This document shows, piece by piece, positions 4,095 to 37,707 of a DNA stretch of 38,237 nt. The notes under the pieces were generated by a model. It did no database searches. It saw nothing but the letters and a program-made list of their open reading frames with translations, and was not told the origin of the DNA. How positions within the stretch are numbered: the stretch's first letter is position 1; each line of letters begins with the position of its first letter. Origin of the DNA: a virus; IMG/VR virus record IMGVR_UViG_3300036819_000347, positions 1-38,237 of that record. One strand, written 5' to 3'. The position numbers and the translations under genes were made by a program.

Positions 4095-5024
4095 ATGGAT
4101 GCAGCGAAGAACCGCGACCGTTTCTCCACCGCGCCGAGGCTGAATAAGCGCGGGCAGCCCATCGCTGCCCTCATGGTGGACCGACAGCCGCACGTTCTCC
4201 GCACGCTTGCCGAACACGGCACCCTGAATGTCTACGACATCCACACCATCGTCGGCGGCAATCTGCGCTCACTGCGCGCCACGATAGACATCCTCAAAAG
4301 CAAACCGAACGAATACATCCGCATTATTCCGGAGCAGCTCCGGACGCGTAATTTGCGGGAAAATCTGTACTACCAGCTCGCCCCGCGCGGCGTCGAATGG
4401 CTCAATGCCAATGGCCAGCGCGCGCAGCAGCCGCGCCGCGTCTACAACCTGGGCCACACCGGCCTTGTCTCCCACATCATGGCGTCGCTTAGCGCCGGCA
4501 TCGCGCAGCACGACGGTAGCCGCTTCGTTTCTTGGGACGAGATGCAGACGCATCCGAAATTCCCGAAGAAGACGCTCGAAGCGAAGGACAAGACCGCCAT
4601 CCCGCATCCGAAGGGGAGTATCCGGCCGGACACGCACCCATTCGGTATCGAGCTTTTGAAGGATGGCAAGAAGGTCTACCGCTTCTTCGTCGTCGAAGCC
4701 GACAACGGCACCGAAACAATTAAGCCAAGCCGTCCTGACGAATACACGGGCAACTCAATCTACGCGAAGTTCGAGGCGTATCTCGACTTCGTCGAGCATA
4801 AGGGCTTCCACACGTATTACGGCTTGCCCAACTATTTCGTCCTCTTCGTTTTCTCCAACACCGCACGGCTCGAACACGCCAAAGAACTGCTTGCGTCAAT
4901 GACGCGTGCGGGATCTCGCTACGTCCTCTTCCAGCTCGCCAATCACGAAAACCCACCCGGCTACATTTTCACGACGCCCTGTGAGCGCGTCGGGCATCCG
5001 TCTCTTCGCCTTAATCAACCATAG
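4095..5024 (+). CDS. Replication-relaxation family protein (winged helix plus nuclease-like domain)
   Basis: The 309-residue protein resembles the replication-relaxation family often found beside TraG/VirD4-like genes on plasmids and integrative elements. Residues 28-100 form a winged-helix DNA-binding domain. Residues 170-280 resemble a PD-(D/E)xK-type fold, with Asp179 (RPD), Glu201 and Asp203 (VEADNG) and Lys225 as possible active-site residues. ATG 4095 is preceded by GAAAGG; an upstream TTG at 4083 is less likely. It follows the VirD4-like ATPase by 77 bases. A pairing of a DNA-pumping ATPase with a nuclease-like DNA-binding protein could serve DNA transfer, replication or defence. The family call is good, the function uncertain. 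Confidence 0.72.
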   Translation: MDAAKNRDRFSTAPRLNKRGQPIAALMVDRQPHVLRTLAEHGTLNVYDIHTIVGGNLRSLRATIDILKSKPNEYIRIIPEQLRTRNLRENLYYQLAPRGVEWLNANGQRAQQPRRVYNLGHTGLVSHIMASLSAGIAQHDGSRFVSWDEMQTHPKFPKKTLEAKDKTAIPHPKGSIRPDTHPFGIELLKDGKKVYRFFVVEADNGTETIKPSRPDEYTGNSIYAKFEAYLDFVEHKGFHTYYGLPNYFVLFVFSNTARLEHAKELLASMTRAGSRYVLFQLANHENPPGYIFTTPCERVGHPSLRLNQP

Positions 5025-5266: not shown

Positions 5267-5503
5267 CTATTCCTGCGGGACCGGTTCTTCCCCGCTCGGC
5301 AACGGGGGCATCAATACAAACCGCCCGTCCCACGCCAATGGCGTAGTGGTGAGTTGGATTGATAGACCTTCTTCGCCTGAGCGGAAATTCCACGCCGCGC
5401 CGACCGTGACCCAGCCGTTTCCGACTTTCGCACGAGCGATGTAACGGGGTTTCGGACGTGTCCGTCCGTTCGCTGCCGGGGCAGCATTTGTTGAGGTGCT
5501 CAT
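5267..5503 (-). CDS. Conserved small protein of unknown function
   Basis: The 78-residue protein has a disordered, Ser/Ala/Asn-rich start followed by a compact beta-rich part (ARAKVGNGWVTVGAAW ... LDGR-like WDGRFVLMPPL). This pattern of short beta strands around a VGAAW core recurs in small phage and plasmid proteins of alphaproteobacteria. The chosen ATG at 5503 has a purine-rich AGAGAG about 8 bases upstream; an upstream extension is unlikely to be coding. It converges on the preceding operon and diverges from the primase-like gene. No function can be given. Confidence 0.65.
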   Translation of the reverse strand: MSTSTNAAPAANGRTRPKPRYIARAKVGNGWVTVGAAWNFRSGEEGLSIQLTTTPLAWDGRFVLMPPLPSGEEPVPQE

Positions 5504-5811
5504 ACGCAACTCTCTTTCTCTCGCTTTCAAGTGCGAGTGGGGCGAGGCGACCGCTTTTATGCGGTTACGGTCGCGAGCGTTTGTTCTCACCAGTGTTGAC
5601 GCACCGTCGCATTACTCCCCCCACTCGCATTCGAAAACGGTTCAAGCGCGATGTGGCGGCGACAAGAGTTGAACTTGTTTATCGATGGTTATGGGCCATC
5701 GAAGATACCGACCTCCCCGCCGCAACACCGCGCTCGAATGCCTATCCCCAATCGTACCGCACCAAGTCGCACCACCGTGCTTCAATTGTGGATAGGAAAG
5801 AGAGGTGCGCT
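5504..5811. promoter_or_regulatory. 308-bp divergent intergenic region with a long imperfect hairpin
   Basis: No gene is seen. Bases 5532-5542 (TGCGAGTGGGG) pair perfectly with 5619-5629. The stem extends outward, with one G-T wobble and one mismatch, to about 5525 and 5636, giving roughly 17 pairs. Inside are GCGACCG (5547-5553) / CGGTCGC (5568-5574) and the tight hairpin CCGC-TTTTAT-GCGG. A 6-bp CGATGG/CCATCG hairpin lies near 5684. The region must hold the promoters for the divergent genes. The large stem may be a replication origin, oriT-like site or structured leader. Confidence 0.5.
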
Positions 5812-24555: not shown

Positions 24556-24747
24556 AACTATCCCCCAAATGCCGACTCTACCCCTGGTCCTCAAGACCGG
24601 GGCTACAATGATCCCTATGAACCACACAGCTTGCAAGGCCTAAGGCAAAGTCCCTGTAGCCAGTCCTCATCCCTGCTCCCTTGCAACGACACTGACCAGA
24701 CGGCAGGGGTGACAGTCGTCGTCATTTCCCCCTGCTTTCGCATCAAT

Positions 24748-24774
24748 GCCTTTGCAAAAGGCTTTTTATTTTTG
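24748..24774 (+). terminator. Strong intrinsic terminator
   Basis: A 6-bp stem (GCCTTT / AAAGGC) with a 3-nt loop is followed by TTTTTATTTTT. Confidence 0.75.
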
Positions 24775-24855
24775 GCGGTCTTATTTTCGGCGGCGAATGC
24801 CGCTTCGACGTTTTTACTCGATCCGTCGGCGCCGTGTGGAATGTACGAAATCACA

Positions 24856-24890
24856 AAGGCCCCGCGCTATTACGCGCGAGGCCTTTTGTG
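24856..24890. terminator. Bidirectional hairpin terminator
   Basis: AAAGGCC and GGCCTTT flank an inner GC-rich stem (CGCG type). A-rich and T-rich ends on the two sides allow termination in both directions. Confidence 0.65.
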
Positions 24891-25022
24891 AATGGACGCC
24901 TTTGAGGGCGCGAGAAATGCGGGTCGAACCGTGTTTCTCAAGTCGAATTGTACACTCAATTCGTCCATCCCCAAAGCTTACCATTGTGGACATTCATCAG
25001 TTCCACATGGAGGTGGGGATAA

Positions 25023-25211
25023 TCACTTCCTGATGTTTACCTTGTCAGAGCCCGAGTGGCCCTTGATGATATTCAGCGCTTCGGTTTCTGTGTTTGCGGT
25101 GCCCACTTCCTCGGTAGCCAGTCCGTTCTCGTTCGTGACCGTCTTGTGCCCGAAGCCGTCCCGGATTTTGTACACGTTCTTGCCGCTATCGACCTTTTTT
25201 GAGCTACCCAT
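25023..25211 (-). CDS. Small conserved protein of unknown function
   Basis: The 62-residue, lysine- and glycine-rich protein (KVDSGKNVYKIRDGFGHKTVT ... ALNIIKG) is likely a small beta-alpha fold. The start at ATG 25211 is certain, because GGAGGAAAAG lies directly before it; the upstream ATG at 25223 would place that site inside the gene. It is one of the minus-strand cargo genes. Function unknown. Confidence 0.65.
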   Translation of the reverse strand: MGSSKKVDSGKNVYKIRDGFGHKTVTNENGLATEEVGTANTETEALNIIKGHSGSDKVNIRK

Positions 25212-25388
25212 CTTTTCCTCCATTCAGATGAATTAAGGAGAACTTGGCCGCCCAATGGAAGGTTCGTTCACATTTCGGATACCTGCACACTTCACTGCAA
25301 ACGAACGCTCACACGTACAATCACTATGTTTGCAGGCACCAATTACAAATTCCATTCCGAAACACCGTACAAATAAGCCATTTCCGCC

Positions 25389-25661
25389 ACTGTGCCGTCG
25401 GGCATTTCAGCCCCGACCAATTCCAATCCTTGGCTGGTTACTTCTTCCACTCACGTGTCCCAACCCCGCTCCGCGATCCTCGGCCCTGAAGGGCCTGCGG
25501 GTTCCCGGCTCGCGCCGGCCGTTCACCCTCAAGGAACAGCCTTACGGGCTAATGGACAGCAGAGCCGTCCATTAGTCCGCGCCCGTCCTTGAGGGTGTCC
25601 GATTCCAGCACTGTATTGGAATTGGTCGGGGCCGACGCCCACGGACACAGGGCGGCACAGT
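25389..25661 (+). ncRNA. Candidate structured RNA / DNA element with nested helices
   Basis: An outer 9-bp pair (ACTGTGCCG 25389-25397 / CGGCACAGT 25653-25661) and a perfect 17-bp pair (CCCCGACCAATTCCAAT 25411-25427 / 25615-25631) enclose several arms. These include AACCCCGC/GCGGGTT capped by GGCCC-TGAA-GGGCC, the hairpin CCGGC-TCGC-GCCGG, and a 12-bp pair CACCCTCAAGGA (25524-25535) / 25586-25597. The last encloses a 13-bp stem 25545-25557 / 25567-25579. The innermost stem has one G-T wobble that pairs only in a plus-strand transcript. No known RNA class is recognised; a DNA role (origin or packaging) is also possible. Confidence 0.55.
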
Positions 25662-25691
25662 TGACAGTTCCGGCGATTTAACGCCGAGCAG

Positions 25692-25700
25692 TTATCCACC
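25692..25700 (+). promoter_or_regulatory. DnaA-box-like sequence
   Basis: TTATCCACC matches 8 of 9 bases of the DnaA box. It is a single copy, so it is only suggestive of an origin next to the structured element. Confidence 0.3.
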
Positions 25701-25756
25701 TGGACAGTTACTTGCTTGCAAGTACAATTACCTCATTAGCCATCATTCATTGACCT

Positions 25757-25924
25757 ATGGATACAACACGACAGTTGCGCGATGTGATTACGAACGTTCT
25801 TGTGAGTTGCAGCATCCACAGTTCGGACCTGAAATCGACCGACGACATTCTTGCCGTCCGCGACCATTTAGTAGCGACGCTCTCGCAGACGTTCGATTGG
25901 AAGTTTTCGGCTAAAACCGATTGA
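25757..25924 (+). CDS. Small early protein
   Basis: The 55-residue protein has helical segments (TRQLRDVITNVLVS and ILAVRDHLVATLSQTF) and no known motif. It opens the plus-strand early cluster in a T-ATG context, about 13 bases after the expected start of transcription from TACAAT at 25732. Its stop lies next to the next start (TGATATG). Confidence 0.5.
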   Translation: MDTTRQLRDVITNVLVSCSIHSSDLKSTDDILAVRDHLVATLSQTFDWKFSAKTD

Positions 25925-26908: not shown

Positions 26909-27631
26909 CTAGCTCATCGCTCGGCCGACGAACTCATTAAACCCGTTCGTTCCGGGCAAGAGCCTAGCATATTGGGCAAGCGCCTCGGCATCATCGGCCG
27001 TCGTGCCCGCTGCCACTTTGTCTTTTATCAAGAGGACGCTGTGGCGCAGCTTCGGCGACAGCTCGGAGAGGAAGTTGACGCCGGCAACGAGACGGCTTTC
27101 CCGCACGAGCGCCCCATGCGCCTCGCGGCCGTAAAAGCCGAAGTCCGGGACGACAAGCTGCCCTTTGAAATGCGCCATAAGCAGAAGGCCGAGGACGAGC
27201 GCGTCAAAGTCTCCCAGCTCCGCGCGGTCGAGTTTCGCCAGGATGATGGAGTTGGGATTGAACGAGAAGTTTGTCGGATTGCAGAGAACGCGTTTCAAGA
27301 CGGGCGAGACGAGCAAGTCGTCAAGCATCCCACTCACTTCCTCGTCGCCCTGGACCTCATCAAGCTGTTTTGCTTCGAGCAGTGCTTTCAGGAGTGCCCG
27401 CTTCCCATTCCGGACCGTCAGCGTGTTCTCACCTTGCGGAGATATCGTATAGAGCACGTCCGCCAGCTCACGCGCCTTTTTGTACGTGATGTCCTTGAGC
27501 GGATTGAAACAGTGCTTGTGCGGGTCGAATACCCTGGCGCGCGGGATCTCCGGCACCTTGTCGTCTATGAAAAGAAAGCCGCGTTCCGGCAGCTCAATCG
27601 TTTTTGTGAAGCCGACGTAGAGCCGGTTCAC
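26909..27631 (-). CDS. Walker-less VirD4/HerA-like pseudo-ATPase
   Basis: The 240-residue protein follows the outline of the VirD4-like ATPase at 2680: RARVFDP...CFNPLKD matches its IEPD...LNPLD; LVSPVLKRVL matches LSNPVLRSMF; and a C-terminal TADDAEALAQYARL matches SDDEAKYLAPKL. The Walker A region is missing entirely. The Walker B position reads LVVPDFGF instead of a DE pair, so ATP hydrolysis is unlikely. It starts at GTG 27631, overlapping the stop of the HNH gene. It may be a regulatory subunit or inhibitor of an active ATPase. The relationship is inferred by eye. Confidence 0.6.
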   Translation of the reverse strand: MNRLYVGFTKTIELPERGFLFIDDKVPEIPRARVFDPHKHCFNPLKDITYKKARELADVLYTISPQGENTLTVRNGKRALLKALLEAKQLDEVQGDEEVSGMLDDLLVSPVLKRVLCNPTNFSFNPNSIILAKLDRAELGDFDALVLGLLLMAHFKGQLVVPDFGFYGREAHGALVRESRLVAGVNFLSELSPKLRHSVLLIKDKVAAGTTADDAEALAQYARLLPGTNGFNEFVGRAMS

Positions 27632-29094: not shown

Positions 29095-29138
29095 GAGCAT
29101 CCCCAGCGTGCTTGCGGGGTCATCCTATACTCGCTTGC

Positions 29139-29195
29139 ATGAACATCACAGAATTTGTCCGCGCTAGCGGCGCAAATGAAAACCCCCGCCGCTAG
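29139..29195 (+). pseudogene. Truncated GG-motif small ORF
   Basis: A short frame of 18 codons begins NITEFVRASG, like the starts of the GG-motif proteins at 26467 and 29527. It then ends in a hairpin (CCCCGCC / GGCGGGG). The upstream TATACT-N7-ATG context repeats that of the 29527 gene. It looks like a decayed duplicate. Confidence 0.35.
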
Positions 29196-29229
29196 AAAAT
29201 GGGCGGGGGCTCCAGACGGAGAGCCAAAC

Positions 29230-29448
29230 TTAGACAGCTCGCCAGTAGTCCGGCCTCTTTTTATCGTTCAGGTGCCGTACGCGCGCGACGTGCGGCGAAT
29301 GCCCGTTTGCCTTCGACCAGTCGATCGCTTCCTTCTGCGTGCTCGAAGTATGCAAAACGTGGTCTGCATGGTCTTCGACAACGTAATCATCAATGTGAGT
29401 GCCTTCCGGCCGCCCCTTCGGGCGCGCTTCCACGAATACAGTTGCCAT
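29230..29448 (-). CDS. DUF2188-like small protein
   Basis: The 72-residue protein has the conserved pattern VFVEARPKGRPEG ... YVVEDHADHVLHT...Q..AIDWSKANGHSPHVARVRHLNDK. It is widespread in alphaproteobacteria and related to the DUF2188 group. Function unknown. The start at ATG 29448 is supported by AAGGAG 6-7 bases upstream. Confidence 0.7.
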   Translation of the reverse strand: MATVFVEARPKGRPEGTHIDDYVVEDHADHVLHTSSTQKEAIDWSKANGHSPHVARVRHLNDKKRPDYWRAV

Positions 29449-29526
29449 AGCGTTTCTCCTTAGTGGTGAAGCAGCAGTTATACCCGATTCGCGGCGGAGT
29501 TGTGTCGGCATGATATACTCGTCTGC

Positions 29527-29661
29527 ATGACACTCACCGTTACTGAATTCGCGCGCATGGGCGGCGCTGCGCAGAAAGAGCGGTATTCCAAGAAGCAATT
29601 AAGCGAGTGGGGCAAAAAGGGCGGCAGGCCTCGCAAAAAGAAGCATCGCTTGACAAAGTAG
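29527..29661 (+). CDS. Small basic GG-motif protein, second copy
   Basis: The 44-residue protein (TEFARMGGAAQKERY ... WGKKGGRPRKKKH) is a paralogue of the protein at 26467. An extended -10-like TGATATACT at 29511-29519 lies 7 bases before the ATG, so a leaderless mRNA is plausible. A hairpin with T-run follows. Nucleic-acid binding is inferred from charge. Confidence 0.5.
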   Translation: MTLTVTEFARMGGAAQKERYSKKQLSEWGKKGGRPRKKKHRLTK

Positions 29662-29680
29662 CTATCCCCACGCGCAACGT

Positions 29681-29703
29681 TTGAAGCTGCTTGCAGCTTT
29701 TCT
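29681..29703 (+). terminator. Small intrinsic terminator
   Basis: AGCTG-CTTG-CAGCT, extended by A-T pairs and followed by TTTTCTG, lies 20 bases after the GG-motif gene. An outer imperfect CACGC/GCGTG stem can extend it and would compete with the closing helix of the RNA that follows. Confidence 0.5.
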
Positions 29704-30149
29704 GTTGCGTGAGAGAATGAGCGCAGAAGGTTCATTGATAACGTGGTGAGTTTGGAACGAGGGGCGTTCGATGAGACCTCGATAATCCGGCGTTGGCGAA
29801 CAGCAATGGCCCAATCGAGGCAATAAACGGAGAATGTAAATGCTCCGCCGCCTCTCGCTCCCAGCTCATCACCTCAAAGCGGATACGTGTTCACGGCTGG
29901 AAGCCTCGCAGAAAGGCAGCTAGCACGAGCGCCGCTCGCCTTATGTCCTAGCGTGCTAAATGGATGTCGGCAGAGCCTGCGGCAAGCTTCTGGCCGCGAG
30001 CACGTATCGCATTCAGAGAGGAAAGTTTGGAGCCTTGAAAATGTGGCAATGAACGCGGAGTAATTACCGCAAGTAATTCGTCCTACTCACTGGCCTCCGT
30101 TCTTGCAAGGACGCGCCAGTGCAAGGCTCCCAGCTTTTCTCTCACCAAC
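29704..30149 (+). ncRNA. Candidate large structured noncoding RNA (about 446 nt)
   Basis: No credible gene lies in 29662-30271. A 13-bp helix with one bulged base (29704-29717 / 30137-30149) closes the whole region. Inside are CCTCGAT 29777-29783 / 29814-29820; hairpins GAACG/CGTTC and CGGAG/CTCCG; GCGGATACGTG 29879-29889 / CACGTATCGC 30001-30010, enclosing TAGCACG/CGTGCTA and GCGGC/GCCGC; and GGAGCCTTG 30029-30037 / 30122-30130, enclosing GCGG/CCGC and CACTGGC/GCCAGTG. Wobble pairs favour the plus strand. It does not look like tmRNA, RNase P RNA or a group I/II intron. Class unknown. Confidence 0.6.
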
Positions 30150-30271
30150 TTATCAGCATTACTCTTACGCCTTCCGTGCCGCTCGCGGTGTTGAATCATC
30201 ATCACTCGTAAGGGGATGGTACAGCAATGCCTCACCACGAGCAGCACAGAGGGAATTAATTAAACGAAACT

Positions 30272-30475
30272 ATGGTCACACCACTCACGATCGAACCCAT
30301 CATCTATCGCCACGAACTCGAAACCTACAAAAAGAACTCCCGCCGCGCTCTCAATGAGAGCAAGCGCCGGAGAGGGAAATGGATAAACACCTTCCGCAAC
30401 ACCGTATCGCAGTACACCCCGCTTCTCGCGCTCATCGGCACCACACTACTCGTCTCACATTCAATCTATGGCTGA
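30272..30475 (+). CDS. Small protein with C-terminal membrane helix
   Basis: The 67-residue protein has a basic, helical middle (KKNSRRALNESKRRRGKW) and one predicted transmembrane helix at the C-terminus (YTPLLALIGTTLLVSHSIYG). It is the first gene after the candidate RNA and is coupled to the next gene (CTATGGCTGA). Function unknown. Confidence 0.55.
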   Translation: MVTPLTIEPIIYRHELETYKKNSRRALNESKRRRGKWINTFRNTVSQYTPLLALIGTTLLVSHSIYG

Positions 30476-30840: not shown

Positions 30841-31458
30841 ATGGCTCTCACCGCACCGAAAGGAAAATCATTCGACCCCGTACCGGCCGGCTCCCACATC
30901 GCCCGCCTCTACCAAATCATCCACATCGGCACCATCGCGACCGAATGGCAGGGCAAGAAATCGCAGACCGATAAGGTCCGTCTCACATTTGAGCTTTGCA
31001 ACGAACGCAAGGCGTTCAAGGAGGGCGACGAGCCGAAGCCCTACTCCATCTCCCGCGAATTCAGCTTCTACATGAGCCGGAAAGCGAACTTGCGGCAATT
31101 CGTGGAGGGCATGATCGGAACGGCCCTCGACGAGGAAGAAGCTGGCATCTTCAATTTCGAGGACTTGCTCGGCACTGAGTGCTTGCTCAACGTCATTCAC
31201 ACGGAGAGCAAGACGAACGGCAACACCTACGCCGACATCAAAAGCGCTTCGCCGTTGCCGAAGGGCATGAAGGCACCGGAAATCTTCAACGAGCCGAAGC
31301 TCATCGACGTGAACGAAGCTACGTCGGAGGAAATCGACGCGCTGCCGGAATTCATCAAAGACAAGATGAAGAGCAGCGAGGAATACGACAAGCGCTTTCG
31401 CCAGGCCGAGCGCGCTGGGACCAAGGAGCCTGTTAGCCCTGACGACATTCCCTTCTAG
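30841..31458 (+). CDS. Phage ssDNA-binding-like protein
   Basis: The 205-residue protein has a beta-rich OB-like core (SHIARLYQIIHIGTIATEW ... VRLTFELCNERK, then CLLNVIHTESKTNGNTYADI). It ends in an acidic tail with the exact tip DDIPF, the protein-recruiting tip of bacterial SSBs. It resembles a recurrent phage early protein in which the same segments occur. It probably coats ssDNA during phage replication and recruits partners through the tip. It precedes the NinB-like and HerA-like genes. T-ATG start. Confidence 0.72.
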   Translation: MALTAPKGKSFDPVPAGSHIARLYQIIHIGTIATEWQGKKSQTDKVRLTFELCNERKAFKEGDEPKPYSISREFSFYMSRKANLRQFVEGMIGTALDEEEAGIFNFEDLLGTECLLNVIHTESKTNGNTYADIKSASPLPKGMKAPEIFNEPKLIDVNEATSEEIDALPEFIKDKMKSSEEYDKRFRQAERAGTKEPVSPDDIPF

Positions 31459-37630: not shown

Positions 37631-37707
37631 TGGCGGTCCCGAGAGGAGTCGAACCTCCGACCTTCGGTTTAGGAAACCGCTGCTCTATCCGGCTGAGCTA
37701 CGGGACC
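37631..37707 (-). tRNA. tRNA-Arg (CCT anticodon), right attachment site
   Basis: A full cloverleaf with encoded CCA: acceptor GGTCCCG/CGGGACC, D stem GCTC/GAGC, anticodon loop TTCCTAA (anticodon CCT, decoding AGG) and T loop TTCGACT. The anticodon stem has one G-A mismatch at its base. Its 3' end points into the element, as expected for an integration target whose 3' half is restored by the phage copy. Confidence 0.95.

Follow-up and report, generated by a model that had tools for sequence, protein, structure and literature searches.

A modular structured RNA at the probable start of an early transcript of a rhizobial-type phage

Structured RNAs have been described at several places in phage transcripts. 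The HK022 put RNA and the lambda nut/boxB site, which works with the N protein, are short RNAs of fixed structure, and the leader of T4 gene 32 carries an H-type pseudoknot. There are also much larger phage RNAs. GOLLD is a large structured RNA with a conserved 3′ region and a less conserved 5′ region, and phage tRNAs are sometimes found in its linker region (PMC12286853). ROOL, an RNA of phages and prophages whose function is unknown, contains pseudoknots and often lies near tRNA islands (PMC12286853).

The element described here is of this broad known kind, the large structured phage RNA, with GOLLD and ROOL as the nearest kind, and it is a new RNA family that is not in Rfam; no description of its modular build was found among open-licence papers. 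It lies in a 38,237-nucleotide stretch of viral DNA (IMG/VR record IMGVR_UViG_3300036819_000347, positions 1 to 38,237), the whole of which was analysed and is called the window below. Like GOLLD it is phage-borne and has a conserved 3′ part (the pseudoknot) and a variable 5′ part (the modules), but the resemblance is only architectural: the window element is a chain of separate stems that bear exchangeable cargo and stand upstream of an mRNA, and its conserved 3′ part is a short pseudoknot. With ROOL it shares a phage or prophage setting and a pseudoknot, but it is modular where ROOL is a fixed compact fold. As with put, or nut/boxB and N, a structured RNA heads a phage early operon and a small basic protein is encoded nearby; this leader, however, is about 500 nt long and modular, and in relatives it bears tRNA cargo. 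The H-type pseudoknot, together with an SSB-like protein encoded in the window's operon (30841-31458), recalls the T4 gene 32 leader. The genes that follow the pseudoknot differ in relatives, however, so autoregulation of SSB does not describe the class, and SSB-specific regulation was rejected. Finally, phage tRNA arrays come to mind because one relative (L133) carries a genuine tRNA-Leu(CAA) and others carry cargo derived from tRNA-Leu, but most modules are not tRNAs and the window's array has none. The features of the locus are as follows.

29527 to 29661, plus strand: small basic protein of 44 aa, MTLTVTEFARMGGAAQKERYSKKQLSEWGKKGGRPRKKKHRLTK; it has homologues in L147 (51%) and L132 (59%), likewise upstream of the array
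29691 to 29718, plus strand: promoter-like element of the leader, TTGCAG - 16 nt - TGA GAGAAT (extended -10)
29742 to 29875, plus strand: module A, an A-type stem with the motif GAGUUUGGA / UCCCAGCUC; covarying stem
29879 to 30010, plus strand: module C, with the motif GUUCACGG / CCGCGAGC; covarying stem
30016 to 30143, plus strand: module B, a second A-type stem with the AGUUUGGA/UCCCAGCU motif as in module A
30156 to 30247, plus strand: H-type pseudoknot; helix H1 30156-30169/30207-30230, helix H2 30176-30189/30234-30247, loop CCUUCC between them
30248 to 30254, plus strand: conserved AGAGGGA directly 3′ of the pseudoknot; a short A-rich linker leads from it to the start codon
30272 to 30475, plus strand: first ORF of the early operon, 67 aa, taken from the ORF list; not conserved among relatives

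An earlier note, made from the window's sequence, had marked 29704-30149 as a gene-free stretch folding into a large multidomain RNA of no recognised class. On the plus strand this stretch indeed holds no credible gene, the longest ORF that both starts and ends inside it being 58 aa. The RNA fold of that strand has a minimum free energy of -202.2 kcal/mol, compared with about -151 on average for shuffled sequences (z -9.3, with 0/100 shuffles reaching it; z -8.6 against 200 shuffles), most of its helices have a pairing probability >0.9, and the three modules are each significant by themselves (A, z -4.8; C, z -5.5 for 29876-30013; B, z -7.2). That so much nested pairing is unlikely to arise by chance was thus correctly judged. 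The multidomain reading also stands, with three modules in place of the two domains first proposed, and the stretch itself is real, with boundaries that move: the start lies about 20 nt later and the end about 105 nt further on, through the pseudoknot to about 30254. In sliding fold scans of the window, 29704-30149 is among the strongest outliers, alongside a second element at 24640-25760.

Comparison with catalogued RNAs bore out the unknown class. Rfam 15 at the gathering threshold found only a tRNA (37634-37707) in the whole window, and a search of 29400-30400 up to E 5 returned only chance-level SMAD5-AS1_2 and P10. ARAGORN and Rfam found no tRNA or tmRNA at 29704-30254, and no Rfam model for RNase P or for group I or group II introns matched; an identity as tmRNA, RNase P or intron, which the earlier note had already set aside, is rejected. 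Nor was there a covariance-model match to GOLLD or ROOL: the note's comparison with GOLLD fits the general style, in that a conserved 3′ part joins a variable 5′ part and some members have a tRNA, but it does not extend to membership.

The other strand of 29704-30149 folds as well (-178.5 kcal/mol, z -5.0), and the plus-strand energy minus the minus-strand energy is -23.7 kcal/mol (z -3.9, 200 shuffles). With DNA parameters this gap shrinks to about 4 kcal/mol, as expected if the G-U pairs of an RNA cause the bias, which points to a plus-strand RNA; G-U against A-C mismatches stand at 6 to 2, in the same direction and in numbers too small to decide. These energies bear on whether the element might instead act as DNA, as a single-strand origin, cruciform or recombination site folding as ssDNA. 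Such a role would suit the nearby replication genes, the long imperfect hairpins and the DNA fold, which is stable too, but it fits poorly with a strand bias that is large only with RNA parameters, with flanks formed by a promoter-like element and by a pseudoknot that ends at a start codon, and with the tRNA cargo of relatives, which is always on the same strand. We regard it as quite improbable.

Relatives of the element were difficult to reach by sequence similarity. BLASTN of the region against phages, plasmids, eight related phage records and four host-like genomes gave only short chance matches, as did BLASTN against 399 genomes of the host family, where no module copies were found. The first loci, collected through the SSB and HerA genes, had no counterpart upstream of SSB, and the structure is missing at the corresponding place in most phages linked to the window by the SSB gene only. 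The productive bait was an alignment of three versions of the gene at 26909-27631 (minus strand), common to two related phages and the window, which gave matches in 23 viral loci and 9 bacterial genomes. Several of these relatives have diverged copies of the element in the same slot, downstream of the divergent 26909-type gene (nhmmer E 8.6e-8 for L147 and 2e-6 for L148), and the anatomy was read from a side-by-side comparison of them, with help from the sliding fold scans. DNA patterns built from the putative 5′ end, the GTTTGGA/TCCCAGC motif and the C- and A-type cores revealed no new member. Models each built from one sequence, R1 for module B and R2 for module C, found nothing in the first relatives, and R1 nothing in 300 genomes; among closer relatives R2 matched the C module of L133 and R1 weakly matched an A-type module of L154. 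All arrays lie in phage or prophage sequence.

Several further features of these phages were observed along the way. The 26909-27631 protein is common to all relatives with arrays, belongs to no Pfam or PHROG family and is a good marker gene for the phage group. An integrase (1-1095) and a tRNA-Arg(CCT) (37631-37707) occupy opposite ends of the window, which suggests integration at that tRNA; judging from one flanking gene, the host in which the virus is integrated or from which it was taken appears to be Rhodoplanes/Pseudorhodoplanes-like. A near-palindromic long hairpin element of 272 nt (25382-25655, ending TTCCGCC...GGCGG) lies in a stretch, 25300-25760, with z about -7.8 on either strand. 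Diverged counterparts with conserved pairing occur in L122/L140 (24184-24452 of that record) and L124/L139, and partly in L132, L146, L147 and L148; this hairpin is more widespread in the phage group than the leader RNA array. A further stretch, 24640-25120, is strongly structured on the minus strand (z -6.5) around a 66-aa ORF (25023-25223, minus strand) and includes a terminator-like hairpin at about 24850-24885. In another related phage (L003, 366-2241), two ORFs lie upstream of the SSB gene, the first patatin-like phospholipase and the second nucleotidyltransferase-like; by eye, from the translations, the two resemble a CBASS defence pair.

Each module consists of a long stem with a conserved mismatch motif near its base and branched, variable tips, and the repeated stem motifs carry a conserved U-C or A-C mismatch. 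A-type stems occur twice in the window (A and B), in L135 and L147, and twice in L154; C-type stems occur once in the window and in L133, L135, L141 and L147. Although the alignments are small, both stems covary. In the C stem (n=5 sequences), 10/20 pairs have changes on both sides and 97% of cells are paired, a result reached in 0/500 shuffles, and pairing collapses to 40-57% when the stem is slid. In the A/B stem (n=6 sequences), both sides change in 9/20 pairs and 95.6% of cells are paired (0/500 shuffles), and here too the pairing is lost in slid versions. This covariation concerns the stems, the outer branches of the modules being too strongly diverged for such a test; a covariance model, R3, scores module C at 1.7e-21, by construction.

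Covariation among homologues was the check that the earlier note had proposed, and the collected relatives show compensatory changes in the C stem, in the A/B stem and in the pseudoknot. Its main claim, a large multidomain structured phage RNA of an uncatalogued family next to the early genes, is thereby upheld: 29704-30149 does form a structured RNA, which would begin an early transcript of a rhizobial-type phage. The same changes speak to the idea that the leader is simply a tolerant place in which MITE-like or tRNA-derived insertions pile up and decay without function. The number of modules does vary, from none in L140, which retains the promoter-like element and the pseudoknot, through one in L148 and two in L132 to three in the window, L135, L147, L154, L141 and L176 and apparently four in L133; the tips are unconserved, and the tRNA-derived cargo is degenerate. 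Decaying insertions would hardly keep their stems by compensatory change, however, or always lie in one orientation at one place between the promoter and the pseudoknot, or be without copies in the 399 genomes of the host family, and this explanation is unlikely.

One part of the earlier picture was not borne out. The whole stretch had been thought to be closed end to end by a 13-bp helix, and the helix is present in the window's sequence (duplex -18.7 kcal/mol), but six relatives reach only -4.8 to -10.9. Its 3′ strand doubles as the base of module B's own stem, and its 5′ strand overlaps the promoter-like element, which relatives conserve without any partner; a transcript from there would not contain the helix. 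A single closed molecule is therefore rejected, and the 13-bp pairing very probably arose by coincidence in this one sequence, which illustrates that a single-sequence fold can get local domains right yet long-range closure wrong. As for the promoter-like element, the form TTGCnn/TTGACn - N16 - TGAGA[CG]AAT is conserved in L132, L135, L140, L147, L148 and L162. A form with a variant -35 is found at a second place in L147 and also in L134, with no array there, which is behaviour that a promoter would show. A standard sigma-70 scan detected no promoter; from the consensus reading, transcription would start at about 29725. In L147 the array is on the minus strand, about 7.3 kb in from the beginning of that strand, and the second promoter-like copy lies near reverse-complement position 4823 and is followed by a single long hairpin (GCUUGGGCGUUUGAGUGUGCAGCCG..).

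At the other end of the leader, the pseudoknot begins within about 15 nt of module B, and the next start codon is at 30272. It is common to 11 loci: the window, L132, L133, L135, L140, L141, L146, L147, L148, L154 and L176. In nine of these, each locus's own strands pair best and strands taken across relatives do not (0/20000 permutations for both helices); L141 and L176 were added to the nine so tested. The strands were chosen by eye ahead of the permutation test, and automatic scans recovered six. With strict settings, automatic scanning of 1.33 Mb returned 7 hits, of which 6 are true pseudoknots, where 1.1 per shuffled set were expected; the window's own pseudoknot has bulges and was missed by the scan. 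An automatic MAFFT alignment of the pseudoknots was poor and was left out of the analysis. AGAGGGA, exact or one letter off, is present at most pseudoknot loci, with AAGGGGA in L133 and L176. The ORFs that follow are YopX-like in L133 and unrelated small ORFs in other relatives, and this variety speaks against control of one gene. Between the modules and the pseudoknot of L141 and L147 there is an ORF, so modules and pseudoknot may be separate devices.

Immediately before the array there is a basic ORF, with a net charge of +10 to +23, in the window, L132, L135, L147, L148, L154, L141 and L146, and one was read by eye from the translation in L176, making nine arrays in total. Its distance is about 25-110 nt from the promoter, or from the reference point used for L146 and L141; module-free L140 has no such ORF upstream. 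The window's protein matches no Pfam family and is the best candidate for an RNA-binding partner. The ORF itself appears to be part of a duplication (29118-29197 and 29508-29661), in which each copy has an upstream sequence containing TATACT and then a small ORF, these beginning MNITEFVRASGA / MTLTVTEFARMGGA; it is the second copy that encodes the basic protein preceding the RNA. Because of its position and this protein, read-through control of the early operon is a serious rival to the reading preferred below. Under such cis-acting antitermination or anti-Rho control, the basic protein would bind the stem motifs, as lambda N binds boxB, or the RNA would act on RNA polymerase, as HK022 put does; the early operon would be read through, and the pseudoknot would tune the translation start. 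The location between a promoter-like element and the early genes, the basic ORF adjoining nine arrays, the repeated stem motifs with their conserved mismatch and the indifference to the following gene are all consistent with this. Antitermination would not, however, need cargo with a real tRNA and tRNA-derived pieces, nor does it sit well with the strong divergence of the module tips or with the promoter and pseudoknot kept in module-free L140. It is a possible explanation, to which we give appreciably less weight than to the reading preferred below.

The cargo of relatives is informative here. L133 has at 5459-5543 a genuine tRNA-Leu(CAA) (ARAGORN; Rfam 6.8e-9) enclosed by an A-type outer stem, GUGGUGAG/CUCAUCAC. 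A tRNA-Leu-like D arm (GUGGCGGAAUAGGUAGACGC), whose sequence is close to that of bacterial tRNA-Leu, is present in the cargo of L147 and L176, an intact tRNA-Leu-like T arm (GCGAGGUUCAAAUCCUCGC) is present in that of L148, and the cargo of L141 is similar and more diverged. In L176, a prophage in a bacterial genome, the tRNA-Leu-derived cargo lies inside a stem, CAUCAUUGG/CCAAUGA, and the same stem holds C cargo in L135. These tRNA-derived cargoes have insertions and score far below the Rfam tRNA threshold. The leader is thus a set of exchangeable folded blocks between a conserved promoter-like element and a pseudoknot, with cargo swapped inside the same outer stem.

Given these observations, the element could be an early carrier leader for structured RNA cargo in temperate phages of Hyphomicrobiales, with products that act in trans, a proposal that we consider about equally likely to be right or wrong. 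The early transcript would start near 29725 and its leader would carry structured RNAs, each held by a long conserved stem; RNase III, or RNase P/Z for tRNA cargo, would release or trim the cargo, and the small basic protein would bind the leader RNA as a partner. The 3′ pseudoknot would separate cargo from the downstream mRNA, by blocking nucleases or by protecting the start region of the next gene. The released products may act in trans as phage tRNAs or as tRNA or hairpin mimics, and their most plausible role early in infection would be to bind host RNA-targeting proteins as ligands or to serve as decoys for them. The window's own modules have no tRNA likeness, so trans action rests on the relatives. 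Control of one gene explains less well than a carrier leader why cargo is swapped, why a genuine tRNA is present and why it does not matter which gene follows. More speculatively, and with rather little confidence, the whole could be an RNA counter-defence device: interchangeable mimics of tRNA-Leu and decoy hairpins, together with a small basic protein dedicated to RNA binding, would sequester or misdirect host immunity that targets RNA (for example, anticodon nucleases).

These phages thus provide an RNA family that is supported by covariation and whose layout is plain: a promoter, exchangeable cargo stems and a pseudoknot. The swapping of cargo, including a genuine tRNA, offers a testable route to what GOLLD and ROOL may do, whether carrying tRNAs, acting as decoys or regulating early genes.
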